Under the pieces are notes generated by a model that was given only the letters and a program-made list of their open reading frames with translations, ran no database searches and was not told the origin of the DNA. Below, piece by piece: positions 5,955 to 38,946 of a DNA stretch of 64,000 bases (position 1 is the first letter of the stretch; the number at the start of each line of letters is the position of its first letter). Source of the stretch: an uncultured Algibacter sp. (lineage in GTDB: Bacteria; Bacteroidota; Bacteroidia; Flavobacteriales; Flavobacteriaceae); contig NZ_CANKXK010000007.1 in assembly GCF_947487605.1 (NCBI RefSeq), positions 124,001 through 188,000 on the forward strand, given 5' to 3'. Both the position numbers and the translations under genes were made by a program.

Positions 5955-8900
5955 TTGAGAAAATTAGCTATCATATTATGGTTTTGCTTATTAGTTCCCA
6001 GCATAACTATGGGTCAAGAATATTATTTCAAGCACTATAAAGTAGAAGATGGGCTTTCTCATAATACGGTAACCAGTTCTATACAAGATGAAAATGGCTT
6101 TATGTGGTTTGGCACTAAAGACGGCTTAAACCGATTTGATGGTTATTCGTTTAGGCTTTTCCAAAACGATCCCAAAAAACCAAAAAGTTTACAAGGCAAT
6201 TATATTGAATCCCTCCACGAATTTGATGGCACTATATGGGTAGGTACGCATAATGGACTATCTAGTTATAATGAAAAAAATGAAGAGTTTGAGATTTTAG
6301 AAGAAACCTATACAACTAATATTAAAGACATTGAAAACGACAACAATGGAAACTTATGGTATATAGCCTCTGGAAGCTTAAATAAATATAACACTAAAAC
6401 CAAAAAAAATCATGTTTACCCAAAAGAACAATACTTTCGGGCCACAGCAATTGTTAGAACTTCAGATAATCAAATTTGGGTAAGCTCTATTAACCAATTG
6501 TATCAATATATTGAAGCAACCAATTCATTTAAAATTTACCCCCTAAATGTTACGGAAGATGTAAAGTATCCATTCAGAATCCACTCGCTTTTCAATCTAA
6601 ACAAAGACACTATTCTTTTAGGAACACACAACCACGGCGTACTTTCTTTTAATTTAAAAGACACGCAAATTAAAAATATGTTTCCTAACTTAAAAAGCCC
6701 TATTTATGTAAAGGATATTGCCTTGAATGGAGAACATGAATTATGGATAGCCTCAGAATCGGGCATTCACATTTATAATTTAAAAACTCATAGTTATACC
6801 AACCTAATAAAAGATTACAACGATCCCTATGCGCTATCTGATAATGCTGTATATACCTTAACTTTTGATAAAGAAGGTGGCATTTGGGCGGGTACATATT
6901 TTGGTGGAATTAATTATCATACCATAGAATACTTACCTTTTAAAAAATTCTTTCCAAATGCCTCTAAAAACTCTATTAGTGGAAATGCTGTTAGACAAAT
7001 TTGTTCAGATAAATATGGAAATATATGGATTGGAACTGAAGATGCTGGCTTAAACAAATACAATCCCAAAACAGGGATGTTTACCAATTATAAATCGAAA
7101 AGCAAAGGTGGTATTTTATCGCACCATAATATTCATGGTGTTTTACCTGTAGATGATAAAATATGGATAGGTACTTTTAATAATGGCTTAGATATATTGG
7201 ATATAAAAAGTGGACAGCTAATTGGGCATTATGACAAAGGTGAATCGCATAATTTACTAGATAATTTTGGTTTTTCATTATATCAAACTCGAGCAAAAAA
7301 AACTATAGTAATTTCACCTTCAGCTATACAGTGGTACAACCCAGAAACTAAAAAGTTTTCCCACCTTAATGGGTTTCCAAAAAAAAATATTTACACCTGT
7401 TTATTAGAAGACAATGAAGGTGTAATATGGGTAGGTACAAATTTTAATGGATTGTATTATTACAACCCAAAAACAAATGAAAAAAGACACTTTAAACGTA
7501 CTAATAATGACACCTTAGCTATAAGTAACAATAATATTAATAACATATTTCAAGATAGTAGTAATAGAATATGGATTACTACTGAAAATGGATTAAACCT
7601 ATTTGATGATGATAAAAGAAAACTAAAAAAATACGGTGCAAAAGATGGTTTTCCAAGTAATGTATTTTATTCTATACTTGAAGAAGACACTAACAAACTT
7701 TGGATATCAACCTCTAATGGATTAGTTGCTTTTAATACAGAAACTGGCAACAAAAAGATTTACACAAAATCAAATGGCTTACTAACCAACCAATTTAATT
7801 ACAACTCCTCTTATAAAGCCCCTGATGGCACCATGTATTTTGGTAGCGTAAATGGTTTAATTAGTTTTAACCCTAAAAACTTTATAAAAAAGGATTTTAC
7901 ACCAAAAATATTCATAACAGGGCTTCAAATAAACAAGCAAGAAGTTATTGTTAATGACACTAATTCGCCTTTAAAAAAATCGATAACCTTTCTAAATAAG
8001 CTAGAATTGAAACCAAATGAATCTTCTTTTAGCTTAGGTTTTGCTTCGTTAAGTTTTAATGGCTCAGAAACAACAGAATATTGGTATAAAATGAAAGGCA
8101 TAAGTGATGCATGGATACCATTAAAGAATAACCATAGTGCTCATTTTACCGAATTACCAGCAGGCTCCTATAGTTTTAGCGTTAAATCTTTAAGCTATAA
8201 TGGGGTTTGGAGTCATGAATCACCTCCATTAAAAATTGAGGTTTTACCTGTTTTTTGGAAAAGCAACATAGCCTATGCGCTCTATTCTATACTCACTTTA
8301 CTTCTTGTTTTCTTTACTATGCATTACTATCATAAGAGAACTGAATCTATAAATCGTCAAAAAATAAAAGAATTTAGTAATAAAAAAGAAAAAGAAATTT
8401 ATCAATCTAAAATTGAGTTTTTCACTAATATTTCTCATGAAATTCGTACACCTTTAACATTAATTAAAATTCCTTTAGATAAGATTATAAAATATGCAAA
8501 TAACAACCCTGTTATAAAGGAAAACCTCTCCATAATGGAGAAAAACACATCACGTTTATTAGATCTAGTAAACCAATTATTAGATTTTAGAAAAACCGAA
8601 ATAGAAGGTATAAGCCTTACGTTTGTAGAAACAAATTTTACAGCCTTAATAAAGAACACACATCATAGATTTACCGAAGCTATAAAGGATAAAAATATCG
8701 ATTTTAAATTAAATTTTAAAGCTAAGGACATATATGCCTTTGTAGATGCTGAAGCTGTAAAAAAAATACTTAGTAACCTCATAGGAAATGCTATTAAATA
8801 TGCACAAAACCAAATTAATGTTACCTTATCTAGCACTGATGAATTTTTACAGTTAAAAATTCAGAATGATGGAGAACTTATTCCAGAGCATCTTCATAAA

Positions 8901-9926
8901 AAAATATTTGAACCCTTTTTTAGAGGAACAGAAGATGAAAATCTAACAGGAACTGGCATAGGTTTATCATTAGCATATACATTAACCGAACTTCACAATG
9001 GAAATTTAACCCTAAATATAGAAGGAGAAAAATGGAACACCTTTTTATTAAAACTACCTATTCATCAAGAAAACGAATTTAAACTACAGGGGCAGAATGA
9101 TATAAATGAAAGTGACTTTTTATTAAATATAAACGAGGACTCAGAAGAAAACCCTAATAAAGCAAAAATTTTGCTGGTAGAAGATAATATAGATCTATTA
9201 AATTTTGTTGCAAAAGACCTAGGTGAGCTTTATAACATTTACAAAGCAACCAATGGCTCTGAAGCTTTAAAAATTATAGAAGATAAGAACATTCAATTAA
9301 TAGTAAGCGATGTTATGATGCCAGTAATGAGTGGTTATGAGCTCTGTAAGGCTATAAAATCAACATTAGAAACCAGTCATATTCCAGTTATATTCCTTAC
9401 TGCTAAAAACACCTTAAATGCAAAAATAGAAGGACTCGAATTAGGTGCTGATGCCTATTTAGAAAAACCTTTTTCCATACCTCATTTAATAGTCCAAATA
9501 GATAATTTATTGGAAAACAGAAAAAATGTTTTATCACATTATACAAGTTCTCCTTTAGCACATCTTAAAAGTATTGCCCTTACGGAAACCGATGAAACTT
9601 TTATAAGCAAACTAGACAAAGTAATTTTGGATAACCTTTCAAATAGAGAATTAAATGTTGATACTTTAAGTGAGATTATGAACATGAGTCGTTCTACACT
9701 GTATAGAAAAATTAAGGAAATGTCTAATCTAAGTCCAAATGAACTTATTAATATTTCTAGATTAAAAAAAGCTGGTGAGTTATTAAAAAAAGAAGATTAT
9801 AAAATTTATGAAGTTGCAGATATGGTTGGATTTAACTCTCAAACTAGTTTTGGTAGAAATTTTCAAAAGCAATTTAATATGACGCCTACAGAGTATAAAA
9901 ATAATTTAAGTAAAAATCCTGTTTAG
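5955..9926 (+). CDS. hybrid two-component system sensor/regulator (HTCS)
   Basis: 1323-residue one-protein signalling system that senses a glycan in the periplasm and activates a utilisation locus. Order: signal peptide; Reg_prop beta-propeller repeats (many W-G-T-NGL motifs) to about residue 670; Y_Y_Y domain about 685-750; one membrane helix about 770-792; histidine kinase with H-box NISHEIRTP (His828), N-box NLIGNAIKYA near 940 and GTGIGLSLAY near 1000; receiver domain with SDVMMP (Asp1119) and the lysine of YLEKPF; AraC-type HTH at about 1210-1320. The start is TTG at 5955: the frame is closed by TAA at 5940, and the next Met (residue 19) would lose the signal peptide. It converges on the second SusC/SusD operon, whose upstream boxes are probable targets. 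Confidence 0.95.
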   Translation: MRKLAIILWFCLLVPSITMGQEYYFKHYKVEDGLSHNTVTSSIQDENGFMWFGTKDGLNRFDGYSFRLFQNDPKKPKSLQGNYIESLHEFDGTIWVGTHNGLSSYNEKNEEFEILEETYTTNIKDIENDNNGNLWYIASGSLNKYNTKTKKNHVYPKEQYFRATAIVRTSDNQIWVSSINQLYQYIEATNSFKIYPLNVTEDVKYPFRIHSLFNLNKDTILLGTHNHGVLSFNLKDTQIKNMFPNLKSPIYVKDIALNGEHELWIASESGIHIYNLKTHSYTNLIKDYNDPYALSDNAVYTLTFDKEGGIWAGTYFGGINYHTIEYLPFKKFFPNASKNSISGNAVRQICSDKYGNIWIGTEDAGLNKYNPKTGMFTNYKSKSKGGILSHHNIHGVLPVDDKIWIGTFNNGLDILDIKSGQLIGHYDKGESHNLLDNFGFSLYQTRAKKTIVISPSAIQWYNPETKKFSHLNGFPKKNIYTCLLEDNEGVIWVGTNFNGLYYYNPKTNEKRHFKRTNNDTLAISNNNINNIFQDSSNRIWITTENGLNLFDDDKRKLKKYGAKDGFPSNVFYSILEEDTNKLWISTSNGLVAFNTETGNKKIYTKSNGLLTNQFNYNSSYKAPDGTMYFGSVNGLISFNPKNFIKKDFTPKIFITGLQINKQEVIVNDTNSPLKKSITFLNKLELKPNESSFSLGFASLSFNGSETTEYWYKMKGISDAWIPLKNNHSAHFTELPAGSYSFSVKSLSYNGVWSHESPPLKIEVLPVFWKSNIAYALYSILTLLLVFFTMHYYHKRTESINRQKIKEFSNKKEKEIYQSKIEFFTNISHEIRTPLTLIKIPLDKIIKYANNNPVIKENLSIMEKNTSRLLDLVNQLLDFRKTEIEGISLTFVETNFTALIKNTHHRFTEAIKDKNIDFKLNFKAKDIYAFVDAEAVKKILSNLIGNAIKYAQNQINVTLSSTDEFLQLKIQNDGELIPEHLHKKIFEPFFRGTEDENLTGTGIGLSLAYTLTELHNGNLTLNIEGEKWNTFLLKLPIHQENEFKLQGQNDINESDFLLNINEDSEENPNKAKILLVEDNIDLLNFVAKDLGELYNIYKATNGSEALKIIEDKNIQLIVSDVMMPVMSGYELCKAIKSTLETSHIPVIFLTAKNTLNAKIEGLELGADAYLEKPFSIPHLIVQIDNLLENRKNVLSHYTSSPLAHLKSIALTETDETFISKLDKVILDNLSNRELNVDTLSEIMNMSRSTLYRKIKEMSNLSPNELINISRLKKAGELLKKEDYKIYEVADMVGFNSQTSFGRNFQKQFNMTPTEYKNNLSKNPV

Positions 9927-9993
9927 CAGTTTGGTTTTTTGGTAGAAAATTAACCGTTTACTTGTTAACTCTATTTTAGATCTCTAAAAAAAC

Positions 9994-10018: not shown

Positions 10019-10142
10019 GTAGATTGTTTTACCAACTAATTTCAACAAATTACTACACAAATAATTATACTATTTCTCGTTTAAAATGATCGAAATAAAA
10101 AGATCTTTTTATTTTACAGTACTTTCAATAATAAAATGGTAT

Positions 10143-10204
10143 AAAAAACCTCTGGTTAAAAAACCTCTGGTTAAAAAACCTCTGGTTAAAAAACCAGAGG
10201 TTTT
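10143..10204. terminator. bidirectional terminator with a triplicated arm
   Basis: Three perfect tandem copies of the 15-mer AAAAAACCTCTGGTT (10143-10157, 10158-10172, 10173-10187) are followed by one inverted arm CCAGAGGTTTT (10194-10204). The nearest hairpin is 10175-10204. Read on the minus strand the stem is followed by TTTTTT, so it ends the SusC/SusD operon coming from the right. On the plus strand it can stop readthrough from the regulator gene. The remaining gap 10205-10341 shows no gene. Confidence 0.85.
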
Positions 10205-10341
10205 AAACTAAACTAAATTACTACTCTACTAATAAAACTAATTCAAATAAAATTATTGTTTCTCTTTTTAAACGTTATTCTGATGTCTTTTCTGTTTAGA
10301 AATTAACATCTAGTACGTTTAGGTATTTAAAAACCTAGCTA

Positions 10342-11874
10342 TTATTGTATTTTAAATCCTTCAGGGTTTTGCTTTATTTTGCTCGTATTAATCGTTTCTT
10401 GAGGTATTGGAGCAATATAATTGGCTTCTGTTGGCTGTCTTACTAAAGCTATTTCCTCGGTTGGGTCTCTTCTTAATGTAACCTCTTGTACTTTTTCAGT
10501 TCTTACAAGATCGAACCATCTCTTGTACTCTCCTGCTAACTCCCATCCTTTTTCCGCAACGATTTCATCAGCGGTCATAGTCGCTACATCTACAGAGCCA
10601 TCTGGTACATTATAAGGCAATCCCATCGATCTTCTTTTTACTTGGTTAAACGCCTCAATAGCTTGGGCATTTGCTCCAGATGCTCTGGTCTGAGCCTCTG
10701 CATAAAGCAATAATACCTCGGCATACCTATATACTTCTACAGCCCTAAAACTAAAAAGTTTATTACCTAAATCTTTTCGCTCTGCAATATTAAATTTACG
10801 ATACATAGGGTGATTTCTTTGAGACTCTGGCCATGGTTTTGTTTCACCTGTTTCCGTCACTTGACCACCTCCACCTACTCTTTGGGGTATCTCGCTGTAA
10901 AAAGTAATATCTTTTCTAAAACCTTCGGGAAAATCAATAAAGAATTGCCTTTCTGGATAGGCATCTGACCAACCACCTGCAGAATGAAAATGAAAATTCT
11001 GAGGCCCTATATATCTAATATCCTCTGCTTCTGAAAACTGAACTGCAAATATTGATTCTAAGCTGTTCTGGTTTTCTTGCTTCCAAAGCTCATCAAAAGG
11101 AAGTAAGCTATAATAATTCATATCGATAACATCTTTTGATTTTTGAGCCGCCATAGCATACTTAGAAGCGTCTTTTACTGGCCAGCCACCCCATGTTAAG
11201 TATAAATCTGCCAATAATGTTTTAGCCCCTGCTAACGAAACTTTACCGACTGCTGTCACATTTTGTGGTGCAGGTAAGTTTGCCTCGGCAAATAACAAAT
11301 CTTGTTCTATTAATTGATAGTTTTCCAGTACTGTAGCACGTACTTCATCTCCAGTTGGAGCAACGCCATCAACAATTATTGGCATGTTGCCCCAAGATCT
11401 AACCAAATGAAAATAAGCAAGTGCTCGTAAAAAACGTGCTTCACCTTCAGCTGCTAGAACCAAATTTTCATCGGCAGTAGAGCTTTTTAACCCATCTATA
11501 ACTGTATTTGCAAAATAAATAGTTCCCCAGTACTGATCCCATGTATATTGTAACCATGGATGAGAAGAACTTTCTCCATTGCCATAATCAAACCTGTCAA
11601 ATATTCTAAAAATTTCTTTATTACCACCCCACCAAGTTGTAAGATCATCTGCTCCATAAGTTATACATCGTTGCCTATGTGATTCTCTATAGGCTTCCAT
11701 CATGCTTCTATAGGCTGGTGCCAAAGCGGCATCTATGTCAGATTGAGTATTTAATGACCCAATAGAAAATACACCACTTGTGTCTTCTTCTAAATCTAAT
11801 ACACAAGAACTTAAAAAGAAAGTCAATGTAAAAACCAGACCAGTCATCATTTTATATTTGTTCATTTTTTTCAT
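10342..11874 (-). CDS. SusD/RagB-family surface lipoprotein
   Basis: 510 residues. Lipobox FFLSSC is followed by VLDLEEDTSG, an acidic surface-export signal. SusD features: GEARFLRALAYFHLVRSWGNMP near residue 145 and AEKGWELAGEYKRWFDLVRT near the C-terminus. It starts 25 bp downstream of its SusC on the minus strand and is the distal gene of that operon, ending before the triplicated-arm terminator. It is presumed to be the glycan-capturing lid of the adjacent SusC. Confidence 0.95.
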   Translation of the reverse strand: MKKMNKYKMMTGLVFTLTFFLSSCVLDLEEDTSGVFSIGSLNTQSDIDAALAPAYRSMMEAYRESHRQRCITYGADDLTTWWGGNKEIFRIFDRFDYGNGESSSHPWLQYTWDQYWGTIYFANTVIDGLKSSTADENLVLAAEGEARFLRALAYFHLVRSWGNMPIIVDGVAPTGDEVRATVLENYQLIEQDLLFAEANLPAPQNVTAVGKVSLAGAKTLLADLYLTWGGWPVKDASKYAMAAQKSKDVIDMNYYSLLPFDELWKQENQNSLESIFAVQFSEAEDIRYIGPQNFHFHSAGGWSDAYPERQFFIDFPEGFRKDITFYSEIPQRVGGGGQVTETGETKPWPESQRNHPMYRKFNIAERKDLGNKLFSFRAVEVYRYAEVLLLYAEAQTRASGANAQAIEAFNQVKRRSMGLPYNVPDGSVDVATMTADEIVAEKGWELAGEYKRWFDLVRTEKVQEVTLRRDPTEEIALVRQPTEANYIAPIPQETINTSKIKQNPEGFKIQ

Positions 11875-11899
11875 AATATCACGTATGTTTTGAGTATTG

Positions 11900-14800
11900 T
11901 TAAAATGTTAATTGTAGTCCCGCTGAAAATGTTCTACTTATGGGGTATGTGTCTATATCAATTCCAATATCTAAATCTGCACTATAATCGCTTGAGCTTC
12001 CTGAAGCGGTTGATTCAGGGTCAAATCCAGAATAATCTGTAATTATAAACAAGTTTTCGGCACTTAACCTTAGATTAAGGCTTTTGAAAAATTTACTATT
12101 AGCAAGATCAAAATCATAACTTAAGGTTATATTCTTCATTGATATATATGATCCGTCTTCTAAAAATTGAGTTGAAAGCGTTTCGGTTCCACTTCTGGTT
12201 GCAGGAATACTATTGCTAGGGTTATCGACCGTCCAACGATCAAGATAATCTGCATGTGTAGCATGAAATTGTGCAGAGCCTAAAGCCAGCATTTTCATAC
12301 GGGTAAAATTATAAATGTCGTTTCCTTGAGACCCTGTAAGCAGAAAGTCTAAATTGAAATTTTTGTATGAAGCTGAAAAATTCCAACCAAATGTAAAATC
12401 GGGATTTCCATCACCAACAATGGTAATATCATCTGCTGAAATAACACCATCTGGAACGCCATTTGGACCACTGATATCTCTATATTTTGCTTGTCCTGGT
12501 ACACGTCCAAAATTTGCAGCTTCTGCTTCTTCTCCAAGTTGCCATATGCCATCAAAAATAAAGCCCCTGAATGAACTAATTGGTTGACCAACCTGAACTG
12601 CTGTAGGATTTGCAGGAAATGTGCCTGTAGGTCCTCCGAATCCAAGTTCTAAAAAGTCGTTTTCTCCATCCAGCGCAAGCACTTCATTTTTATTACTTGA
12701 CAACGTAAACGTGGAGCTTATGTTCCAATCATCATTCCTAAATAATGTGGCACCAAGAGTTATATCAATACCTTTATTTTCTACTTCTCCTACATTTTCA
12801 AAAACAGATGTTGGTCCTACAAAGGCAGGCAATGTTTTTAATACAAGTAAATCATCTGTTTTTTTATGATAAAAATCGACTGAAAGATTAACTTTTGAAT
12901 TCCATAAACCTAAATCAATAGCAAAGTTTCGTTGCGTAGTTGTTTCCCATGTTAAATTTGGATTTGCTAACCTATTTGGTGCTGCAACACCTACTGTAGC
13001 GCCATCTCCTCCAAACGGATAATTAACATTTGCTCCGATTATAGGTACTGGTATTGTAGCAAGTGGTTCAAGAGCTTGACTTCCAACTTGTCCGTAACTA
13101 AATCTAAGTTTTAAATTACTTATAGCACTAACGTCTTTAAAAAAGTCTTCATTAGAAACTTTCCAAGCTACCGAAGCAGAAGGAAAGTACCCCCATCTAT
13201 TATCTTTTATAAACTTACTCGACCCGTCTGCACGTAAAGAAGCGGTGAATAAATAACGGTCAGAAAATGAGTAATTTACTCGCCCTAAAAACGATTGAAT
13301 ACTTTGACTAAATGAATTGTTTTCAGTTCTTTGAATAGGTGCTAATGCAAGGTTACCAAACGTAGTTTGATCTGAAAAGAAACCGCTTCCAGAAGCTATA
13401 GTTATATCTGTTTGTGTTTGCTGTTGTTCGTGCACTAAATCAACCCTTAAATTATGTTTTTCCTTTTCAAGGGCATAGGTTAACCTATTTGTATTTTGGA
13501 GGCTAACATCTTTTCTGTTTTCTACCGAAGCCCGAGCATTATTGCTTATGATTATAGAAGTATATCTATTTCTAACTCTGTCAAGAGTATTTAAACCTCC
13601 TAAGATATTAAAAGTAAGATTTTTAGCTATTTTAAAATCTACGTCTCCATTAATGTTAAACCTATCATCAAAGAATTCTCTCACATTGTTTTCTGGAGCA
13701 AGCAATGGATTATTGCTAGCGTTTCCAACACCTGGTTTAATAGTTGCAAAAACATAATCTCCATTATCATCAAATGCGGGAGTTGTTGGGTCTCTACTCA
13801 AAGCGGCAAAAAGATCAGCACGCTCACCCACGGTTTCTTCACGACTGTAACTCGTATTTAAACTCAGTTTGATTTTTGGAGAAACTACGGCATTCATATT
13901 TCCTCTAAACGTGTATCGCTTATAATCTTGATTAATAACGGTACCATCTCTATCTAGGTAACTTCCAGAAACAAAATAATCAACATCGTTGTTTCCGCCA
14001 CTTACTGATAACTGTGTATTTGTAAAATAGCCTGTTTTAATAAGGCGGTCTTGCCAATTTTCACCTCCGTTGATTCTAAGATCTTCAATTTCACTAGCCG
14101 AATAGACGTCCATTCCTTCTGCAAAATTAACCCCTTCAGCAAACTGAGATGCGCTCATAAGAGGTAACTCTTGTATCAAATTTGAAATTCCTGAAACAGC
14201 AGTGAGTTCTATTTGAGCTTTACCTTTTTTACCCCTTTTTGTAGTTATAAGCACGACACCATTGGATCCTCTCGATCCATAAATTGCTGTTGCAGATGCA
14301 TCTTTAAGTATTTCCATCGATTTAATATCGCTCGAATTAATAGATGAAATGTTACTTAATACAACACCATCAACAACATATAAAGGAGAGTTGTCTCCAC
14401 TTATAGAATTTGATCCACGTACACGGATTTTAAATCCGCCTCCTGGTGCACCACTGGTTTGTACTACAGATACACCTGCAGCTCGACCTTGGAGGGCTTG
14501 ATCAATTCGTGTAATTGGTTGTTTCTCAAAATCCTTCGCAGATATTGACGAAACGGCTCCTGTAAGATCACTTTTCTTTACAGATCCATAACCAATTACC
14601 ACGACTTCATCTAGTGATTGGGTATCTTCTTCTAATACAATATTAATAGTGGTTTTCCCATTAACTTGTACTTCCTGTTTTATAAATCCAATATAGCTAA
14701 TAACCAAAGTAGCATTAGATGCTACATTATTGATGGTGTAATTACCATCAAAATCGGTTTGCGACCCGTTAGTAGTCCCTTTGACAATAACACTTGCCCC

Positions 14801-14944
14801 TGGTAAAGTTGCATTATCTACAGCCGAAGTTACTACACCGCTCACTGTAATATCTTGTGCTAGCAAAACAGTACTGGATGTAAACGATATGATTAGAATT
14901 AAAATTCTAATCAGCTTAGTGTGTTTGAGAAAGTTTTTTTTCAT
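11900..14944 (-). CDS. SusC-family TonB-dependent receptor
   Basis: 1014 residues. Signal peptide ending in VLLAQD, carboxypeptidase-D-like domain (VSGVVTSAVDNATLPGASV) at about residues 33-110, TonB-box-like DEVVVIGYG, plug domain with VRGSNSISGDNSPLYVVDG and IYGSRGSNGVVLITTKRGKK, then the beta barrel. It lacks the STN domain of the first SusC, so it is a plain importer. This fits control by the HTCS rather than by FecR. A promoter-like site and a conserved box lie 80-200 bp upstream. Confidence 0.95.
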   Translation of the reverse strand: MKKNFLKHTKLIRILILIISFTSSTVLLAQDITVSGVVTSAVDNATLPGASVIVKGTTNGSQTDFDGNYTINNVASNATLVISYIGFIKQEVQVNGKTTINIVLEEDTQSLDEVVVIGYGSVKKSDLTGAVSSISAKDFEKQPITRIDQALQGRAAGVSVVQTSGAPGGGFKIRVRGSNSISGDNSPLYVVDGVVLSNISSINSSDIKSMEILKDASATAIYGSRGSNGVVLITTKRGKKGKAQIELTAVSGISNLIQELPLMSASQFAEGVNFAEGMDVYSASEIEDLRINGGENWQDRLIKTGYFTNTQLSVSGGNNDVDYFVSGSYLDRDGTVINQDYKRYTFRGNMNAVVSPKIKLSLNTSYSREETVGERADLFAALSRDPTTPAFDDNGDYVFATIKPGVGNASNNPLLAPENNVREFFDDRFNINGDVDFKIAKNLTFNILGGLNTLDRVRNRYTSIIISNNARASVENRKDVSLQNTNRLTYALEKEKHNLRVDLVHEQQQTQTDITIASGSGFFSDQTTFGNLALAPIQRTENNSFSQSIQSFLGRVNYSFSDRYLFTASLRADGSSKFIKDNRWGYFPSASVAWKVSNEDFFKDVSAISNLKLRFSYGQVGSQALEPLATIPVPIIGANVNYPFGGDGATVGVAAPNRLANPNLTWETTTQRNFAIDLGLWNSKVNLSVDFYHKKTDDLLVLKTLPAFVGPTSVFENVGEVENKGIDITLGATLFRNDDWNISSTFTLSSNKNEVLALDGENDFLELGFGGPTGTFPANPTAVQVGQPISSFRGFIFDGIWQLGEEAEAANFGRVPGQAKYRDISGPNGVPDGVISADDITIVGDGNPDFTFGWNFSASYKNFNLDFLLTGSQGNDIYNFTRMKMLALGSAQFHATHADYLDRWTVDNPSNSIPATRSGTETLSTQFLEDGSYISMKNITLSYDFDLANSKFFKSLNLRLSAENLFIITDYSGFDPESTASGSSSDYSADLDIGIDIDTYPISRTFSAGLQLTF

Positions 14945-15090: not shown

Positions 15091-15139
15091 AATGATTCGT
15101 TCTACATATTGTGTCAATTTCTCATAAATACTAATCAAA
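15091..15139 (-). promoter_or_regulatory. conserved upstream box, copy 1 (probable HTCS site)
   Basis: This 49-bp segment matches 17051-17095 at 42 of 45 aligned bases with one 4-bp gap. The core is TACATATTGTGTCA, then TTTCTCATAA, then AATCAAA. Both copies lie in the same orientation upstream of minus-strand genes. The rest of the 702-bp gap (15140-15646) is AT-rich and I see no gene in it. Confidence 0.65.
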
Positions 15140-15646
15140 ATTTATGTATTTAATATATATAGTCAGTTTAGAGTGTGATATTCTAAATATTGTAGTAAAT
15201 GACCTAATTAAAAATCTTAGATTATTTGAATAAGGAACTTTATACGTCATTATATTAGCAGGTTGTTCTATTTGCCTATAAAAACTTTAACCAAAAAGAA
15301 TTACTTGATGCTTAGTGATAATGTCCCCGATGAATTTATCATTATTAATAATGCGGCAATCTAAATACTGAATATTGGTTTTTAACTAAAGTAAAATCTG
15401 TATTCAACTTTATCTGATGTAATACTATTTCTAAAATATTGAAATCGCCTTGACTTTTCCTTGCAACCGAAAGAAGAGAAAGTTTGTTTATACAGGATAC
15501 TCATTAAAAAGCATAGTATGGTTAGAGATAAAAAAAAGAAATAATTATCGAATTTTATACATTGTCTAGAAAATAGAAAAAAGCAAGATTAGTTAATCAC
15601 TATCTAAACTATAATTTAATAGAGTTTTGCTTTCTATATAACTTTC

Positions 15647-16837
15647 TTAATTAGAAATATCCCTGATTTTTTTAATCAATTCTACTTCGGTTTCATCATA
15701 GGGCGTACCGTCTTTTCTAAAAACATCATGAAACCATGGGTCTGGTTCTTCTGTAAATTTTTCTTTCCAAGAACTCCATGGGTAAATAGTTTGTGACTTC
15801 CCATCAAATAGCCCCCAATGTACAGCTCCTACCTTATTTTTATGTAATAAAGGCAGTGTATTTTGAAACGTAGATTTAGCAGAACGCGCCATATATTCTG
15901 TACAGAATATTGGTCGATTATATTTTTGTAAACCCGCAATCATTTTTGCAGTTTCTTCTGGTGCACTATAAGAATGAAATGAAATAACATCAGATTGTTC
16001 TATACTAAGTATTTCAATATCATCAGGCTGTTCTATCCAGTTAGGGTTACCCCAAACACCCGCTGTTAGTGGTTGTGAAGGGCTAATTTCCCTAGCCCAT
16101 TTAAACGTTTTCTCTAACAGCTCCCTAGTACGGAGCAGTTTCTCTTCTTTTGGTAAATCTGGAGCTTTACTTCCGCCTCCAAAATTACCAGCATTAGTAT
16201 TATCTGGTTCGTTAAATAAATCCCATACTAACACTCTAGAATCGTCCTTGTATCTTGAAATTACTGCTTGAACATACCCTTTTAATTCATCCTGTTTATT
16301 AGAATCTTCAAGAATTTCTCTACCTGGAGATTGCACCCACCCAGAGTTATGTACTCGTGGATTTGGCTCGGGTTGTTTACCTGCTTTTGGATACGGATTC
16401 CAAACACCATCAAAAATAACAAACATGGTATATATGTTATGTTTACTAGCTATTTCTAGGTATTTATCTACATTTTTTAAAAAGCCTTCAGCATCTTGTT
16501 TCCAAGCTAAATCGTGCAAAAACACACGCATTATGTTAAAACCATTTTGGGAAGCAATATTTAATTCAAAATCAATTCTTTCTGGATCAAACGTATCATT
16601 TTGCCACATTTCTAATTGATTAATTGCAGATGCAGGAACATAATTTCCCCCCATAGTATAAGGAATAGTATCATACCAAGTATTCGCCTTTTCTTCGGTC
16701 CATCTCGCTCCTAACTTTACAGGAGATTCCTCTACAGAAGATTCCGTTTTTACTGCTTTTTTACATGATGAAAAACTTAAAACAGCTATAATAAATACTG
16801 TTTTAAAAGTGTTTTTGGTAGTTAATCTGAAATTCAT
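15647..16837 (-). CDS. clan GH-A (GH5-like) glycoside hydrolase lipoprotein
   Basis: 396 residues. Lipoprotein signal with SFSSC followed by KKAVKTES. The remainder is one TIM-barrel glycosidase. The acid/base is Glu210 in DLFNEPDN and the nucleophile Glu314 in FCTEYMAR, 104 residues apart as expected for clan GH-A. Other conserved blocks are NYVPASAINQLEMWQ, MRVFLHDLAW, VIFDGVWNPYPKAG and HNSGWVQSPG. Relatives are usually annotated as cellulase-family or 1,4-beta-xylanase, but I cannot assign a GH5 subfamily or a substrate. It is transcribed separately from the SusC/SusD operon but shares the upstream box, so it is probably co-regulated and acts on the same glycan. Confidence 0.85.
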   Translation of the reverse strand: MNFRLTTKNTFKTVFIIAVLSFSSCKKAVKTESSVEESPVKLGARWTEEKANTWYDTIPYTMGGNYVPASAINQLEMWQNDTFDPERIDFELNIASQNGFNIMRVFLHDLAWKQDAEGFLKNVDKYLEIASKHNIYTMFVIFDGVWNPYPKAGKQPEPNPRVHNSGWVQSPGREILEDSNKQDELKGYVQAVISRYKDDSRVLVWDLFNEPDNTNAGNFGGGSKAPDLPKEEKLLRTRELLEKTFKWAREISPSQPLTAGVWGNPNWIEQPDDIEILSIEQSDVISFHSYSAPEETAKMIAGLQKYNRPIFCTEYMARSAKSTFQNTLPLLHKNKVGAVHWGLFDGKSQTIYPWSSWKEKFTEEPDPWFHDVFRKDGTPYDETEVELIKKIRDISN

Positions 16838-17050
16838 AATTGTTGTTTATTTTTTTGTTACAACCAAATTTTAGCTTTATGGAAAAATCTAGCAAAGCAT
16901 CTTTCATTTTTTAGCTTAAATTTTTTACGGATAGCATCTAACAAACTATTACTGTTTTATACAGCAAAAGAATATTGAAGTAACAATTACCTTTAAATGT
17001 TCAACTAAAATGAAAAATTAGGACGTACCAATTAAATGAAATTTTAAGAA

Positions 17051-17204: not shown

Positions 17205-20200
17205 TTACTTCACAATAATTTTCCAGCTAGTACCTTTAGTTTTAAGAATGTAAATCCCCGTAGTAAGATTAGGGATTTCTAATTTGGTTGTTTCATAAGC
17301 TTCAATAAACGTTTGCTTTGTTGGGATGTACCTACCTTCTATACTAAACAGTTCAAAACTAGTATTAATAGAAGTATGCGTTATAGAAAGCTCAGATAAA
17401 CCCTGAATAGGATTGGGGTATAAGACCATACCGCTTTCTGTTACAGGCGTTTTTTGGAAATACCCAAGGGCTTTGTTAAAAGCATCAATGCCTATTTTTT
17501 CGCCAATGATTCTACCAGGGATATCGTCTGCAGGAGGATGTATCCCACCCCAAATTCTAGATAAACTACATTGGTCTGAAGCATCTCTATACGTTGCCCA
17601 TTGCAAGACCACATCTGTAGAAGGCCCTTGTTCAAATACTAAAAATTCATCTTTCTTCGCAACAAATTCTCCCATACCATTAGGGAAATATTCGCTTCCT
17701 GTTAATAGCGTCATAACCTCTGCTGCAGCTCTGGAATAGGTGGAGTGACCAGACACATAGCCTGCAAAAGGTGGTGTTACAAAACTTGGGCGTTGGTAAG
17801 GCCACCAGTTATCAGCCAAGATCCAACCAACACCAGCTTCATCTGTAGCAGTATTTCCTATAAAATCATGACCTTTCCATGCAAATAACTTTATTTTTCC
17901 TATATGTTCATTATTCCTTCCTGCCAATGGGTCTCCTTCTCCTACTACTTCAATATAATCATCAATTAGGGAGATACCATTTGCATTAAAATTGGGTAAG
18001 TTTTCATTGGTGCTTTGTCCTTGACTTGCCATGTATCGTATTGCAGAAATGGGTCTGATATAATCATACCAACCCTTTATACTCCATGCTGATATGGCTG
18101 CATCATGCATAGCACCTCCCAAAGTAAAATAGCTTTTTACATCCCACTCCAAAGGTGTTAATACTTCACCCAAACCCTGTAACTTTTTAGTTAAAGCCGG
18201 ATGATCGCTTACATAATTAAGAATGGTAAACCAGTGCCCAGGAGGGGTTTCTGAGTCTGGACCATCTGCCCAAAACTCTGCAAGTACCCTTGTATAATCT
18301 CCTCGGGGAACCATTTGGGTTTCATAAGGTGTATTGGTTATTGGATTGGTAGTATGTCCTGTACTAATATCACCACCATCAGTGAAATTGTAAAACTGGT
18401 CGAAACTCGCATAGCTAGACGGAAAATTTTCAATAGGAATGTTGCCAATAGATTTTGGTGAAATATCCCAAAGCACACCATCATACGGATTTAAATGCGC
18501 ACTCCATACCGATACCATTGAGAACCCCCATTTATAGGCTTCAGTTGATTCTGGATTGGAACTCGTGATGTAAGGAGGTGCTGAGGGGTCATTATAAACC
18601 AGATAATCATTCCCATCTCTATTATATGTTACTACTTGCTCATTAGTCATAGCAAAAGGCAAGACATTACCCCATTCGGGACTTAAAAAATCTATAGAGG
18701 ACCCTTCAATAAGGTTTCCGCTTTGATCTATATAGGTATCCAAACTTAAAGATTGCCATCTGTTAGGATCTGTAATGCTTGGGTTACCCGCCAATTCAGG
18801 AGCCAAAGTACTATTTACTGGTTGATAGTATGTATTCTCATATTGTGTTTGCTCATTTGATCCATCTGTTATACCATAAGTAATATAACTTTCGGCTATA
18901 AAATTCCCTAAGGCTGCGGCATCTCCAGTAGTGTAATCTGTAAGGCTTATATTTTTATCATAACCCAATTGGTTCATAAGTAAATCTAATTTAGCCAAGG
19001 TCGCTTCTGCGTTGGGGGAGTTTTTAAAACGATGGGACAATAATCTGTAAGCCGCATAACTAATGGCTTTATTTAAAACATCTTTTGAATTTTCATTAGA
19101 AGCTTCAAAGCCTGAAAATGTATTGTTAACGTTATTCAGTGTATTGCCAATAAGATAGGGTTTTGTATGGTTTACAATAGCCCAAGCATCATACATAGCA
19201 GCACTGATATGAAACAGGTTTCTGGCATGTACTGTAGGTCTTGCATAATCTCTACGAATGGCATAGAGTAACGCCTCGTTCCAAATTCTTGCAATAGAGG
19301 TGTTTTGATTCAGGTTTTCTAGTGATGATAGATTCACATTAAGCACTACATCTTCTGATGCACAACGACTGTTGCTAATAATGGCAGATACCGTACCTTG
19401 TACTGCTTCAAAGCCCCAGGTGACTTTAATACTATTGGTACCTTGTCCTGAAACGATGTCTCCGCCTTCTACATGCCAACTTATGCTATTGCCACTTGTT
19501 AACGGATAGGTATAAACTTCTGTATTTAAATAGGTCGTATTGCTAACTCCCGAAATGCTTGAATTCTGGTCTAAATACACGCAAGACCCATCATTTACTA
19601 TAGCATTAGGGTTGTAATTACAGGAGTTGGGGTCTGTACAGCCTTTTTCTTTTTGGGTATCAAAATTGAGTTCGGTATAGCCTTGTCCTTCTACTGCTTT
19701 GATATGTGAATTATTAGATACCCCTTGGTGGGATTCCTGTAAACCTGATGGCCATTGTATATCTAAAGACACCACATCAGCATCCTGAGGGAGTCCAAAA
19801 TGTACAGGCTTTAAACTCTGACCTAAAAAACCAACACCATTATAGTATCTTTTAATTTGACCGTTTGAGGTATGTAACGTTAAGATCGTGCCTATGGCAT
19901 CTTTATTAGACGCTGTGCCTTCTAAAGACACCTTAAACCACTTTAAGTTAGTATTATCAGGATCAATAATGGTTCTGTTTTCAAACAAAGTGGAAACACC
20001 ATGGGCGTTGGTAACAAAAACATCAAGGTCGCTATCGTTATCATAATCAAAATCTAAAGCTTCAACGCCTATTGTAAATTCTTCTAGACCGACTTCTTTT
20101 TCTGTAAAAGTGTTTTCTGCATCCGCGTAACGGTTTTCATAATATACATTAAATTCAGCATTTCTATTGGCAGTATCATAACCATTTACAACAAAAAGAT

Positions 20201-21242
20201 CCTCATCACCATCTAAATCAAAATCTGCAAATTTAGTACCCCAAGACCAGCCTGTATTAGCTATATTGTTTGCCGTTGCATTTTCAATATAATTATTAGA
20301 ACCTGTATTGGTTAGTAAAAAATTAAGGTCAATTGTGGTTATAAAAAAATCAAAATTTCCATCGTTATTATAGTCTCCTATGGTGATACCCATATCATCT
20401 CCTTTGGTATCTATACCATAATTTCTAGCATCATTACTAAATGTACCATCACCATTATTGATAAACAATTCGTTAGGCTTGTTAAAATCATTGAGCACAT
20501 ACAAATCCATCAGCTTGTCAGCATTAAAATCAAAAGGAAATGCGGTAAAACTAGGATATATTGTGTTTATATTTAAGTTAGATTGTATCGTAACATCTGT
20601 AAACGTACCATCTCCATTGTTTTTGTAAAGGGTATTGCCTTGGCAATCTTGTGGATTATTTACAGCGATATTGTCTAACCAGTTACTAATATAAAGATCC
20701 AAATAGCTGTCATTATCATAATCAAACCAAGTAGCACAGGTATTGCCACAGCCGTTATATTTATCAAGTCCCGCTTGATTGGTTACCTCAGTAAAGGTGC
20801 TATCGCCATTGTTTTTAAAGAGCTGTATTTTTCCGAAGTGCGTAAAGAACAAATCTGGAAAACCATCGTTGTTGTAATCGCCCCAAAACACGCCATATTT
20901 ATACCCTGATAAGCCTTCATAGTCATCATAATCGTTCAGTTCAGACGATGAAAACTGGTTGTTAAGGTTTGCCTCAAGAGTAACTTCTGTAAAGGTACCA
21001 TTACCGTTATTTCTAAATAAGCCTCCCCAAGTTTCAGGAAAATTATAATCGTCAAGCTCTTTGGTAACTACATATATATCCAAATCATTATCACCATCGT
21101 AATCGGCTACAGCTACACCATTATTATGACTGATTTGGGTGGAGAACACCTGATTAAAAACAGGTAAAAAATCTTGACTATGGCACAGACCATTACAGAT
21201 TAAAACAAAAATAATGAGATAAAAAGTCTGGTGCTTGCGCAT
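17205..21242 (-). CDS. secreted FG-GAP/ASPIC - vanadium-dependent haloperoxidase fusion with T9SS domain
   Basis: 1345 residues. Order: signal peptide; FG-GAP/VCBS propeller repeats with calcium-type motifs (DYDGDNDLDIYV, DYNNDGFPDLFF) to about 410; UnbV/ASPIC domain about 435-510; a cysteine-rich GCTDPNSCNYNPNA insert near 534; a PKD-like region to about 640; a vanadium haloperoxidase/PAP2 domain about 650-1270; a type IX secretion sorting domain (VLYPNPIQGLSELSI) at the end. Vanadate-site motifs are complete: KGWYDYIRP (Lys1056, Arg1063), VSGH (His1166) and SRIWGGIHPPADD (His1235). The protein would be exported and may oxidise halides with peroxide; a phosphatase-like role cannot be excluded. 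It lies inside the HTCS locus. Confidence 0.88.
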   Translation of the reverse strand: MRKHQTFYLIIFVLICNGLCHSQDFLPVFNQVFSTQISHNNGVAVADYDGDNDLDIYVVTKELDDYNFPETWGGLFRNNGNGTFTEVTLEANLNNQFSSSELNDYDDYEGLSGYKYGVFWGDYNNDGFPDLFFTHFGKIQLFKNNGDSTFTEVTNQAGLDKYNGCGNTCATWFDYDNDSYLDLYISNWLDNIAVNNPQDCQGNTLYKNNGDGTFTDVTIQSNLNINTIYPSFTAFPFDFNADKLMDLYVLNDFNKPNELFINNGDGTFSNDARNYGIDTKGDDMGITIGDYNNDGNFDFFITTIDLNFLLTNTGSNNYIENATANNIANTGWSWGTKFADFDLDGDEDLFVVNGYDTANRNAEFNVYYENRYADAENTFTEKEVGLEEFTIGVEALDFDYDNDSDLDVFVTNAHGVSTLFENRTIIDPDNTNLKWFKVSLEGTASNKDAIGTILTLHTSNGQIKRYYNGVGFLGQSLKPVHFGLPQDADVVSLDIQWPSGLQESHQGVSNNSHIKAVEGQGYTELNFDTQKEKGCTDPNSCNYNPNAIVNDGSCVYLDQNSSISGVSNTTYLNTEVYTYPLTSGNSISWHVEGGDIVSGQGTNSIKVTWGFEAVQGTVSAIISNSRCASEDVVLNVNLSSLENLNQNTSIARIWNEALLYAIRRDYARPTVHARNLFHISAAMYDAWAIVNHTKPYLIGNTLNNVNNTFSGFEASNENSKDVLNKAISYAAYRLLSHRFKNSPNAEATLAKLDLLMNQLGYDKNISLTDYTTGDAAALGNFIAESYITYGITDGSNEQTQYENTYYQPVNSTLAPELAGNPSITDPNRWQSLSLDTYIDQSGNLIEGSSIDFLSPEWGNVLPFAMTNEQVVTYNRDGNDYLVYNDPSAPPYITSSNPESTEAYKWGFSMVSVWSAHLNPYDGVLWDISPKSIGNIPIENFPSSYASFDQFYNFTDGGDISTGHTTNPITNTPYETQMVPRGDYTRVLAEFWADGPDSETPPGHWFTILNYVSDHPALTKKLQGLGEVLTPLEWDVKSYFTLGGAMHDAAISAWSIKGWYDYIRPISAIRYMASQGQSTNENLPNFNANGISLIDDYIEVVGEGDPLAGRNNEHIGKIKLFAWKGHDFIGNTATDEAGVGWILADNWWPYQRPSFVTPPFAGYVSGHSTYSRAAAEVMTLLTGSEYFPNGMGEFVAKKDEFLVFEQGPSTDVVLQWATYRDASDQCSLSRIWGGIHPPADDIPGRIIGEKIGIDAFNKALGYFQKTPVTESGMVLYPNPIQGLSELSITHTSINTSFELFSIEGRYIPTKQTFIEAYETTKLEIPNLTTGIYILKTKGTSWKIIVK

Positions 21243-21397: not shown

Positions 21398-22801
21398 TTA
21401 ATGTGTTGTTAGTAACTCATCAAACAATTTTGTAAGCACTTCTTTTTGAGAAGGGTATGGTGCCTTCCCATCTACAATATTGCCATTAGGGTCAATCAAT
21501 ATAAAACGAGGAATACCCGATATGTCATATTTTTGAATAAAGCTTGATTTCCAATCTTTATCTGCAAGCAGTTGAATGCCATCTAATGCCTTGTCTTTAA
21601 CTATTTTTCTCCATTTTGGGCGATCCTTTAATTTATCAATGCTCAAACCAACAAATACGATATTCTTGTCATGGTAAGTTTTTTCAATTTCCTTTAAATG
21701 TGGTATTTCAGCTTTACAAGGTCCACACCAACTTGCCCAAACATCAATGTAAACGTATTTTCCTTTTAAGTCGTCAAGAGACGTTGTGCCTCCTGCATAG
21801 TTTTCGTAATTGACGAATTTAGGAGAGGGTTGCCCTTTAGCGGTAACAATAACTTCATTGTATTTTTCTGTAATTTCTTTATTATAAGCTTCATTTGTGC
21901 AATTTTCCATATACATAGTGTATAAAGTCTTGAGATCATTTTTGGAAAATGGTCTAAATTCAAGTTCAGCAAATTTAAACAATAACACATTTTTGGCTTC
22001 TTGGTTGGGGTTAGCTAATATGGATTTTATGTAGGCTATATTGTAGTCTAGCGTATCATTTTTACTCATCTGCTCCTGAGCCATTTTTCTGCAATGCCTT
22101 CTGGCCATCCTTAAGTAAACTTCTGAGAATAATAAATCTTCAGCATTGGTATAATCCAACTTTTCTAAGTCCTTTAAAAATCCTTCCGAAACTTGGTAGT
22201 CTTTATCTTTGGCATAATAACGGTAGCTACTTTCATAAAGGCCTAAAGTGAACAGGTATTCATAATCAATACTTCTTTTTTCTTTGGTAACATAATCTTT
22301 AGGAATGTCTTTGTAAGACCCCAATAATGCCAGTTTATCTGCTTTTATTTTTGCAAGGTTTTCTTTATACTGGGTTTCATCTGATGAAAAGAACTTTTTG
22401 GGGTCTGAATGAATAGCTGTTCTTTCAATCGCTTTTTTATGAAATGTATAATTATTAATGGCCGATCCTTTTCCAGAAAAAGCCAAGGTGTTATTTACAT
22501 CCTTTTCATCGAAATTAAGCACAAGATTATAACCATTTTCTAAGTAAAGTGGGATCCTTGTTGGGTCTTCTAAGTTATATCTTCCCTTTTTCAATTTAAG
22601 GGTGTCTAAAAAAACACCATCTTCATCTACGTCAATGTTTAAACGAACCAACCTACCGTAGTTAGTTAATCTAAGCATATCCATGGTGTTATTAGTAATT
22701 TTTCCTGAAAGGATAACATAATCTACAGGTGTAGATTCTTTTTGATTACAGGACATTAACGTAATTGTAATTAGGCTAAATAAAATAAATATTTTTTTCA
22801 T
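21398..22801 (-). CDS. TlpA-like thioredoxin-domain lipoprotein
   Basis: 467 residues. Lipobox TLMSC then NQKESTPVD. The first ~300 residues are helical, preceded by a DUF4369-like beta region. The last ~140 residues are a TlpA/AhpC-type thioredoxin fold with VWASWCGPCKAEIPHLKEIE, the cis-proline segment YDISGIPRFILID and an intact CGPC redox pair. Periplasmic members reduce disulfides or act in cytochrome maturation, and many are found in Bacteroidetes polysaccharide loci without a known substrate. It is transcribed from the divergent region shared with the M16 peptidase. Confidence 0.88.
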   Translation of the reverse strand: MKKIFILFSLITITLMSCNQKESTPVDYVILSGKITNNTMDMLRLTNYGRLVRLNIDVDEDGVFLDTLKLKKGRYNLEDPTRIPLYLENGYNLVLNFDEKDVNNTLAFSGKGSAINNYTFHKKAIERTAIHSDPKKFFSSDETQYKENLAKIKADKLALLGSYKDIPKDYVTKEKRSIDYEYLFTLGLYESSYRYYAKDKDYQVSEGFLKDLEKLDYTNAEDLLFSEVYLRMARRHCRKMAQEQMSKNDTLDYNIAYIKSILANPNQEAKNVLLFKFAELEFRPFSKNDLKTLYTMYMENCTNEAYNKEITEKYNEVIVTAKGQPSPKFVNYENYAGGTTSLDDLKGKYVYIDVWASWCGPCKAEIPHLKEIEKTYHDKNIVFVGLSIDKLKDRPKWRKIVKDKALDGIQLLADKDWKSSFIQKYDISGIPRFILIDPNGNIVDGKAPYPSQKEVLTKLFDELLTTH

Positions 22802-26367: not shown

Positions 26368-28248
26368 CTACCACTCCGTATGATGAAAACCACCAGAGGC
26401 ATCATCAGTCCTTTGATAAGTATGCGCTCCAAAATAATCCCGTTGCGCTTGAATGATACTTGCTGTGGAGTTAGCTACGCTATATCCATTAAAAAAGTTT
26501 ATAGACTCACTTAAACAAGATATAGGAATACTATTTAAAATACATACTGAAATTACTTTTGAAGCACTTGGTTTTAAATGATTAATATGATTCGCAATGG
26601 ACTTATTTGTTATTAAAGTATCGGTATCTTTTAAAATAGGAATTAGTTCCTCCATTAAGTCCGATTTTATAATACAACCATTCGTCCAAATACTGGCAAT
26701 AGTACTTAGATTTAAAGACCAATCATAAGTGTTTGAAGCCTGTGAAATTAATTTAAACCCTTGATGATGATTTATAATTCTTGCAAACTGATACGCATTC
26801 AAAATAGCATCTAATTCTAAATCGATTTCATTCTGAGTATCATTTTTAAAAAGCTTACTGGCTGCAACACGCTCTGCTTTATAAAAAGAGGTGTATCTGG
26901 CAAACAGAGAGGATGCAATCATGGTACTAGGCATACCTAATTCTGCAGTAGCAATAGTTGTCCAGTTTCCAGTTCCTTTATTACCTGCTTTATCAACAAT
27001 TTTATTGATGAGCCAATCGTTGTTTTCCTTTTTTCGTAAAATATCAATAGTAATCTCTAGTAAATAACTATTTGCGGAAGCTTTCCATGTTTCTAAAATA
27101 CTTGCAATCTCATCTGGATTATGCCCCATAGATTTTAGTATGCCAAACACTTCGGCTAATAATTGCATTTCTACATATTCAATCCCATTGTGCACCATTT
27201 TTACAAAATGACCGCTACCATCTTTTCCAATATAAGCACAACAAGGTAAATCGTTTTTATCCTTAGCCGCAATGGCTTCTAAAAAAGCTTGTACTTGTTT
27301 ATAGGCATCCATATTACCTCCTGGCATAATGGAAGGTCCTTTAAGTGCTCCTTCTTCTCCTCCAGAAACACCAACACCAATAAAGTTTATGCCTTTTGAT
27401 TTTAAATAATCGTGACGTGCTTTGGTTTTTTTATAATGTGAATTTCCGCCATCAATAATAACATCGCCTTCTGATAAAAAAGGAATAAGGTCTTCAATAA
27501 CAGCATCAACAATAGGGCCTGCATTTACCATGAGCATAATCTTTCGTGGTTGTTGCAAAGAATTTACAAAACTTTTAAGATTATCAAAAGGAAGGGCAGA
27601 AGCTAGTTCATTATGCTCATTTTTAAAATTAATAGCAACGTTTTCTTCTGTGCCTTCAACATGCCGGTTATACATAGATATTTTAAACCCATTTTGTGCC
27701 AGATTTCTACAGAGACTTTTCCCCATAACGCCTAATCCGAATAAGCCAAATTCTGATTTGTTTTTCAATGTATCCATGATTTTGCTAATTATTGTTTTTG
27801 GGGGTAATTGAATATTTAATTCTAAAGCCTCAAGAGGTGTTTCCAAAGTATCGAATTGCGATTTTAATAACGCAGGAGGCATAAAATGGTCTTTCCTGTT
27901 TTGTAATCGCTCTGAAATCAATTCAAAAGTTCCCGATAAATGAATCCACTTTACGTCCTTGGCAATGTCTTTGCTTAATATGTTTCTGTAGTCTTTTTTC
28001 AATGCAGAACACGCAATAATACAGCCTGTAGCATTTAGTTGTGTTTTTGCCAGTTGATTTAATGCTTGTAACCAACCCCATCTATCGTCATCGTTTAGCG
28101 GTTCGCCATCAGACATTTTTTTTACATTCGCTTCTGGGTGATAGTCATCGCCATCAAAAAATGGTATTTCAAGTGCTTTGGATAGTAGTTTACCTATGGT
28201 GCTTTTACCAACCCCAGAAACTCCCATAATATAAAATACATTTGCCAT
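26368..28248 (-). CDS. bifunctional gluconokinase / 6-phosphogluconate dehydrogenase
   Basis: 626-residue fusion of two consecutive enzymes. Residues 1-158 are a GntK-type gluconate kinase with P-loop GVSGVGKST (9-17) and DGDDYHP. Residues about 165-626 are a decarboxylating 6-phosphogluconate dehydrogenase with NADP-site GLFGLGVMG, DGGNSHYKKT, GVSGGEEGALKGPS and the catalytic KMVHNGIEY block, ending in a normal C-terminus. It would turn gluconate into ribulose 5-phosphate in one polypeptide. Both halves have near full family length and intact motifs, so it is not an assembly of broken genes. It lies 96 bp downstream of the GH20 gene. A GntP permease in the same window could supply gluconate. 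Confidence 0.93.
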   Translation of the reverse strand: MANVFYIMGVSGVGKSTIGKLLSKALEIPFFDGDDYHPEANVKKMSDGEPLNDDDRWGWLQALNQLAKTQLNATGCIIACSALKKDYRNILSKDIAKDVKWIHLSGTFELISERLQNRKDHFMPPALLKSQFDTLETPLEALELNIQLPPKTIISKIMDTLKNKSEFGLFGLGVMGKSLCRNLAQNGFKISMYNRHVEGTEENVAINFKNEHNELASALPFDNLKSFVNSLQQPRKIMLMVNAGPIVDAVIEDLIPFLSEGDVIIDGGNSHYKKTKARHDYLKSKGINFIGVGVSGGEEGALKGPSIMPGGNMDAYKQVQAFLEAIAAKDKNDLPCCAYIGKDGSGHFVKMVHNGIEYVEMQLLAEVFGILKSMGHNPDEIASILETWKASANSYLLEITIDILRKKENNDWLINKIVDKAGNKGTGNWTTIATAELGMPSTMIASSLFARYTSFYKAERVAASKLFKNDTQNEIDLELDAILNAYQFARIINHHQGFKLISQASNTYDWSLNLSTIASIWTNGCIIKSDLMEELIPILKDTDTLITNKSIANHINHLKPSASKVISVCILNSIPISCLSESINFFNGYSVANSTASIIQAQRDYFGAHTYQRTDDASGGFHHTEW

Positions 28249-38898: not shown

Positions 38899-38946
38899 GC
38901 CTTTAATAAATTTTGAAGCCTACTTCAAATGTCTAATTCTAATACT

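Follow-up and report, generated by a model that had tools for sequence, protein, structure and literature searches.

What a predicted halide-oxidising enzyme is doing on the same polypeptide as a CRTAC1-like propeller, and whether it takes part in glycan breakdown, is the question raised by one gene of an uncultured Algibacter sp., found in positions 124,001 to 188,000 of contig NZ_CANKXK010000007.1 (assembly GCF_947487605.1). This stretch of 64,000 nucleotides is referred to below as the window. The gene encodes a protein of 1345 residues in which a CRTAC1-like FG-GAP propeller is followed by a vanadium haloperoxidase (VHPO) domain and a sorting tail of the type IX secretion system (T9SS). 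The VHPOs known so far are mainly single enzymes of algal, fungal and, in a few cases, bacterial origin, and a literature search, the coverage of which was without most subscription papers, returned no paper on a VHPO fused to an FG-GAP protein. The superfamily is known; its propeller-joined form is common in Flavobacteriaceae and seems undescribed.

Domain order and vanadate site

The original prediction was of a single frame of 1345 residues with all the vanadate motifs, an FG-GAP region, an ASPIC domain and a T9SS signal, and it was confirmed by the open reading frame (ORF), Pfam and NCBIfam; the minus strand and a PKD-like stretch are added to it here (Table 1). Residue numbers are those of the window protein, and L-numbers are labels of fetched loci. 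Frame 1 of the plus strand has stops throughout the interval occupied by the gene. The propeller, in which acidic loops of the D-x-D-x-D type are visible, is followed by the ASPIC domain in the order of CRTAC1-like FG-GAP/ASPIC proteins, both by Pfam and by fold. The Cys-rich insert foreseen from the sequence is present after the ASPIC domain, and its residues C535, C541 and C554 are invariant in an alignment of 30 sequences; the PKD_6 match that follows has 19.8 bits and is below the Pfam cut-off of 25.

Within the VHPO domain, Pfam placed DUF6851 at residues 679-830 (E 3e-8) and VCPO_2nd at 1139-1235 (E 2.7e-6), and the PAP2 profile matched the protein at E 0.065 (13.4 bits), under its curated cut-off of 27.2. 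Reduction of the 132 VHPO rows with at least 500 aligned residues left 125 distinct domains. Every one of them, fused (71/71) or unfused (54/54), has identical residues at the seven vanadate positions and at D993, W1053 and F1159. In the Curvularia enzyme, the equivalents of D993, W1053 and F1159 would be D292, W350 and F397. As the solved iodoperoxidase aligns its PPF..Y.SGH with motif 2, the Phe at this motif cannot by itself separate chloride from iodide enzymes.

Structure models and solved relatives

Structure prediction of the two halves had been proposed with the original prediction. The AlphaFold2 model of residues 641-1262, built on a 49-sequence alignment, has a mean predicted local distance difference test score (pLDDT) of 87.3 and a predicted template modelling score of 0.92. 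Structural matches were obtained with VIA and also with Foldseek. The helical fold beyond the PAP2 core matched VHPOs of the chloroperoxidase and iodoperoxidase type (CPO/IPO type) with Z 21-29 over 385-436 residues of the 622-residue domain. The best VIA match was NapH1 (3w35; Z 28.6, root mean square deviation (rmsd) 3.0, 429 residues). NapH3 (28.1) and XhnO11 (27.1) came next, then the iodoperoxidase of bacterial origin, 4usz (24.7), and the chloroperoxidase of Curvularia (20.6-21.3). Algal bromoperoxidases scored about 11-12.6, and acid phosphatases, aligned over about 198 residues, no more than 11.5. Residues 1-640, modelled from a 30-sequence alignment, gave a pLDDT of 90.0, and the propeller model (22-520) matched mouse CRTAC1 (9etn) with Z 41.0 and an rmsd of 2.4 across 454 residues, ahead of a second entry with Z 30.3; CRTAC1 was the top phmmer match as well (E 4.1e-11). 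From these high fold matches the two halves are therefore a CRTAC1-like head and a VHPO. By its sequence and modelled fold features, the protein is a member of the VHPO superfamily, and the vanadate site, the loss of which would have told against the original prediction, appears intact at both levels.

The nearest folds, NapH1/NapH3 (3w35, 8cxl) and XhnO11 (9l8x), all with Z 27-29, are chains of 458-472 residues without a propeller. The iodoperoxidase of Zobellia galactanivorans (4cit, 4usz) has the VHPO fold and vanadate motifs that align with those of the window protein, but its solved chain of 410-415 residues has neither propeller nor linker and is 23% identical to the window domain. The fungal chloroperoxidase of Curvularia inaequalis (1vnc, 1vni) is similar in the layout of the vanadate site and, presumably, in the Trp and Phe of its pocket, whereas its solved chain of 574-576 residues is without a propeller and shares 18-20% identity. 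Conversely, CRTAC1 and the bacterial FG-GAP/ASPIC proteins have the same propeller and ASPIC fold with no enzyme attached, at 21% identity. A further bacterial VHPO, RhobaVHPO of Rhodopirellula baltica, is placed outside the known chloroperoxidase cluster and reported as a chlorinase with a preference for bromine (PMC12871659).

Distribution of the fusion

A DUF6851 match was present in 67 of 199 Flavobacteriaceae genomes. Open frames of at least 1250 residues stand at 29 places in 25 of the 199 genomes, among them that of the window. The propeller half was found in all 28 other such places (blastp 149-509 bits). The domain combination is more than chance, as these 28 genomic places show an identical succession of the two halves, and the fusion as an artefact or a unique event was ruled out by its recurrence in many genomes. 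A second class of frames, mostly of 640-765 residues, gave no propeller half in 21 fetched loci. A third class, of about 474-554 residues, has a far higher DUF6851 model score, and in six of its loci (L152-L157) a VHPO match was obtained with no propeller match at E 1e-5. Across a phylum-wide sample the VHPO domain was found at E 1e-60 in 22 of 395 genomes, with frames of at least 1200 residues at 3 of 26 places.

The 80 best named loci, taken from at least 575 confirmed relatives among at least 591 pattern matches and not independent of each other, include 48 that are fused. Their hosts comprise Winogradskyella, Maribacter, Bizionia, Polaribacter and Flavobacterium species and, outside the Flavobacteriaceae, Marinoscillum furvescens. 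The closest relative of the window among the loci compared is L040 (genome G019), with 75-76% identity in the domain. Three rows are imperfect: the fused L090 and L106 are truncated or split, and the unfused L096 ends at a contig end. In L106, from a Winogradskyella metagenome-assembled genome, the fused gene (8105-12133, plus strand) is broken into frames of 161 and 1098 aa. Tamlana nanhaiensis (L107) has two tandem fused copies, at 8072 and 12099 on the plus strand, and L064 holds a divergent VHPO (15106-17022, plus strand), 46% identical and on a long branch, with a typical 729-aa copy in the same stretch.

Origin of the fusion

The mixture-model tree of 68 domains joined 32 fused rows and the unfused L120 (Wenyingzhuangia) in one clade with support 99; no remnant was found in the L120 stretch, and its unfused state is apparently due to a loss. 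The fused L022 and L027 were placed among unfused rows, the starred branches of the tree forcing four changes, and both are without the Cys-rich/PKD linker, having another junction, whereas L091 has the linker. More than one fusion event is likely, though not proven. The first quick tree had presented L091 (Marinoscillum) as a further separate fusion; this was dropped, since the mixture model without the long row puts it in the main clade (support 99) and its linker agrees.

Possible precursors of the fusion occur as neighbouring genes (domains checked by Pfam in L052, L060 and L145 only). Four unfused loci have a distinct FG-GAP/ASPIC gene next to the VHPO gene and in the same orientation, at a distance of 33 bp in L052, 27 bp in L124, 81 bp in L133 and 19 bp in L145, and in L060, also unfused, one gene stands between the two. 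The order is susC-susD-propeller-VHPO in L052, L124 and L133; L145 is from Psychrosphaera, a gammaproteobacterium, and the pair there has no Sus genes. As these genomes have 5 (L052), 15 (L124), 40 (L133) and 2 (L145) ASPIC matches, the chance of such an adjacency, judged from the counts, is small, and least so in L133. GH20 genes near L052, L060, L132, L145 and L070 give the appearance of a pattern.

The possible link to glycan loci

In the window, the fused gene stands between a glycosidase and a TlpA protein in a locus with a hybrid two-component system (HTCS) regulator, as stated in the original prediction and borne out by Pfam; read along the minus strand, TlpA comes first, then the fusion, GH5, SusC and SusD. 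A conserved TlpA-VHPO-GH5 operon was tried and rejected: neither the window GH5 nor the TlpA had a match above 60 bits in any of the 28 other fused family loci, and the sole other genome of the genus searched has its fused copy in a different setting, with no GH5 match found. Neighbours shared among these 28 loci were of other types, namely a pyruvate-dehydrogenase-type gene with a short-chain dehydrogenase/reductase (7 loci), an M28 peptidase (6) and a nucleotidyltransferase with an SprT-like gene (5), one representative of each type being identified by Pfam.

Upstream sequence of 6 kb was present for 69 of the 71 fused rows and for 49 of the 54 unfused ones. Of the 69 fused loci, 6 have a SusD gene upstream on the same strand within this distance, where at most 1.26 are expected (P 0.002) from a density of 4.2 to 6.1 SusD genes per Mb. 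The six genomes that gave this density were mostly selected because they contain loci of this kind. The six loci represent about four lineages, given the sister pairs L020/L026 and L032/L075, and P is then 0.04. Counting either SusC or SusD, the figures are 8 of 69 fused loci, one of them (L045) on the strength of a doubtful fragment of 152 residues, and 5 of 49 unfused ones. The SusD model is weak, with 18 matches, and missed the SusD-like protein of L040; the counts leave out the second copy of L090, which has susC-susD upstream and is interrupted by the end of its contig.

Some fused loci have neighbours like those of polysaccharide utilization loci (PULs): RGL11, GH2 and GH35 in L020, GH88, GH97 and GH29 in L032, and GH127 in L026. 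In L040, SusC and a SusD-like_2 protein are upstream, and downstream is a NagB/PIG-L fusion 69% identical to the window protein encoded at 30394-32412. Relatives of TlpA directly follow the fusion in 2 of the 48 named fused loci, L099 (45%) and L077 (27%); both have a gene of 226-227 aa before the fusion (L077, 7332-8012; L099, 6996-7679; MORN repeats by Pfam in L099) and two TlpA-like genes after it. The unfused L060 holds a GH5 that is 46% identical to that of the window. Of the coupling of glycan attack with halogen chemistry that was proposed from the locus, the excess of SusD upstream stands as a weak sign, and the partnership with GH5 and TlpA does not carry over to the 28 other family loci. 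Recruitment to glycan loci seems to occur above chance, yet as the exception.

Proposed function and alternatives

We consider it probable that the protein is a T9SS-exported, propeller-positioned haloperoxidase that releases hypohalous acid, encoded by an accessory gene that is sometimes recruited to PULs. It would be exported by the T9SS and probably held at the cell surface. In the mechanism of the VHPO family, vanadate on the last His (here H1235) binds peroxide; halide is then oxidised and leaves as hypohalous acid. The window domain would likewise bind vanadate and use hydrogen peroxide, which algae or other cells may provide, for oxidation of a halide, in seawater most likely bromide or iodide and possibly chloride; the hypohalous acid would be set free and not directed at one bound substrate. 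The CRTAC1-like propeller with its ASPIC domain may act as a binding head and so bring the reaction to a surface, a glycan or a matrix. Adjoining propeller and VHPO genes, of the kind that in some loci still follow susC-susD, would most likely have given rise to the fusion, and the fused gene would have spread through the Flavobacteriaceae with occasional recruitment to PULs, perhaps also in the window. In Zobellia, vIPO3 is reported to have risen on Ascophyllum (PMC9296495).

Several observations weigh against this reading. Identity to the solved CPO/IPO-type VHPOs is only 18-24%, and the nearest folds include NapH3, titled as a catalyst of alpha-hydroxyketone rearrangement, so that halogenation is not assured. 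The core site K-x6-RP, SGH, SR-x5-H is also that of PAP2-type phosphatases. As for the origin, a tree holding all fused rows together was not rejected (approximately unbiased test, p 0.0592), which leaves independent fusion unproven, and a directly adjacent propeller gene was found in 4 of 54 unfused rows; since the other 50 are without one, most VHPOs of this kind do without an adjoining propeller.

A role dedicated to a PUL, in which the enzyme would be induced with susC-susD, its hypohalous acid would attack or modify the glycan or clear algal defence compounds, and TlpA would repair thiols, agrees with the SusD excess, with the GH-rich surroundings of L020, L026 and L032, with the susC-susD-propeller-VHPO order of three unfused loci, with TlpA beside the fusion in the window, L077 and L099 and with the GH5 relative of L060. 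Nevertheless, we regard it as unlikely: SusD is missing from the upstream region of 63 of 69 fused loci, and both SusC and SusD from 61 of 69; the six positive loci shrink to about four lineages; the glycan enzymes vary between loci; and the GH5 and TlpA of the window are absent from the 28 family loci, the genome itself having two further GH5 relatives. Gaps of 367 and 702 bp separate the genes in the window, and matches to promoters (34, against 38.2 in shuffles) and terminators (7 against 4.7) are near the shuffle level.

The core site, common to both families, together with the weak PAP2 match and the acid phosphatases that align over about 198 residues, would also suit a secreted, vanadate-inhibited acid phosphatase that scavenges phosphate and is a VHPO by ancestry only. 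This was set aside as improbable because the PAP2 match is below its cut-off and the fold match far weaker than to VHPOs, the domain of 622 residues fitting the CPO/IPO type with Z 21-29 against at most 11.5 for phosphatases; moreover, W1053 and F1159, presumably the pocket residues of the Curvularia enzyme, are invariant in the 125 rows. Least likely of all, and very doubtful, is a substrate-selective VHPO of the NapH type, acting on a single bound compound and using the propeller for docking. NapH1, NapH3 and XhnO11 are indeed the nearest folds and among the nearest solved sequences, but the proteins scanned with Pfam (window 316-50569 and chosen neighbours) revealed no gene for natural-product biosynthesis. 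Moreover, the selective-site residues presumably differ, F1159 and D993 standing where selective enzymes would have Ser and Lys. The Lys/Ser rule for selective VHPOs is given in PMC12871659.

Beyond the favoured reading of an exported haloperoxidase, a broader proposal, tentative and on balance somewhat doubtful, is that CRTAC1-like propellers and VHPOs make up one recurring surface module, present as adjoining genes or fused more than once, in which the propeller would aim hypohalous acid at glycan or matrix. If so, the ASPIC/CRTAC1 family would gain an enzymatic partner, and the repeated pairing with a CRTAC1-like head is a testable proposal for the role of FG-GAP/ASPIC proteins. With a large multidomain, T9SS-tailed VHPO in 25 of the 199 sampled Flavobacteriaceae genomes, halogen chemistry at the cell surface would be common among these bacteria, and such a trait would bear on halocarbon and iodine cycling. 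In the fetched stretches around the three other ASPIC genes of the genome (L149-L151) no VHPO match was found; in L149 (1369-9719, plus strand) three genes follow one another, the first of 1073 aa and SusC to judge from its position and size, the second a SusD and the third for an FG-GAP/ASPIC protein of 1095 aa.

Features and other genes of the window

Table 1 Features of the fused gene and its neighbours, in window coordinates.
Feature	Position	Strand	Basis
Fused gene, 1345 aa, CRTAC1-like propeller, VHPO and T9SS tail	17205..21242	-	Uninterrupted ORF, Pfam domains, motifs
Signal-peptide-like start, residues 1-22	21177..21242	-	Read from sequence; helix in model
FG-GAP propeller, residues about 23-430	19953..21176	-	Pfam FG-GAP_3, 5 stretches, E 4.7e-35; model
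ASPIC/UnbV domain, residues 449-513	19704..19898	-	Pfam E 2.9e-13
Cys-rich GCTD...GSC linker, residues 534-554	19581..19643	-	Read from translation
PKD-like linker, residues 573-630	19353..19526	-	PKD_6 E 0.001; strands in model
VHPO domain, residues 641-1262	17457..19322	-	Pfam, alignment, structure model
Vanadate motif 1, K1056-x6-R1063-P	18051..18077	-	Sequence motif, alignment
Vanadate motif 2 with F1159, S1164-G1165-H1166	17745..17771	-	Sequence motif, alignment
Vanadate motif 3, S-R1229-x5-H1235-P	17535..17561	-	Sequence motif, alignment
T9SS type A sorting domain, residues 1274-1345	17208..17423	-	NCBIfam; Pfam Por_Secre_tail 1274-1339, 3.1e-8
TlpA-like thioredoxin lipoprotein, upstream neighbour, 155-bp gap	21398..22801	-	Pfam, NCBIfam
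GH5-like lipoprotein, downstream neighbour, 367-bp gap	15647..16837	-	PF00150 6.4e-8
SusC, neighbour, 702-bp gap from GH5	11900..14944	-	Pfam
SusD, neighbour	10342..11874	-	Pfam
HTCS hybrid two-component regulator, neighbour	5955..9926	+	Pfam

Two other joined genes were observed on the minus strand of the window, one encoding a glucosamine-6-phosphate isomerase joined to a PIG-L deacetylase beside a GH20 (30394-32412), the other a small kinase (gluconokinase-like by our reading of a SKI match) joined to a 6-phosphogluconate dehydrogenase (26368-28248). Farther along the same strand, 37006-50569 holds a sulfatase, a GntP permease, a GH43, an altronate dehydratase, a member of the mannitol dehydrogenase family, a TRAP transporter and a uronate isomerase, and looks like a locus for uronate breakdown.

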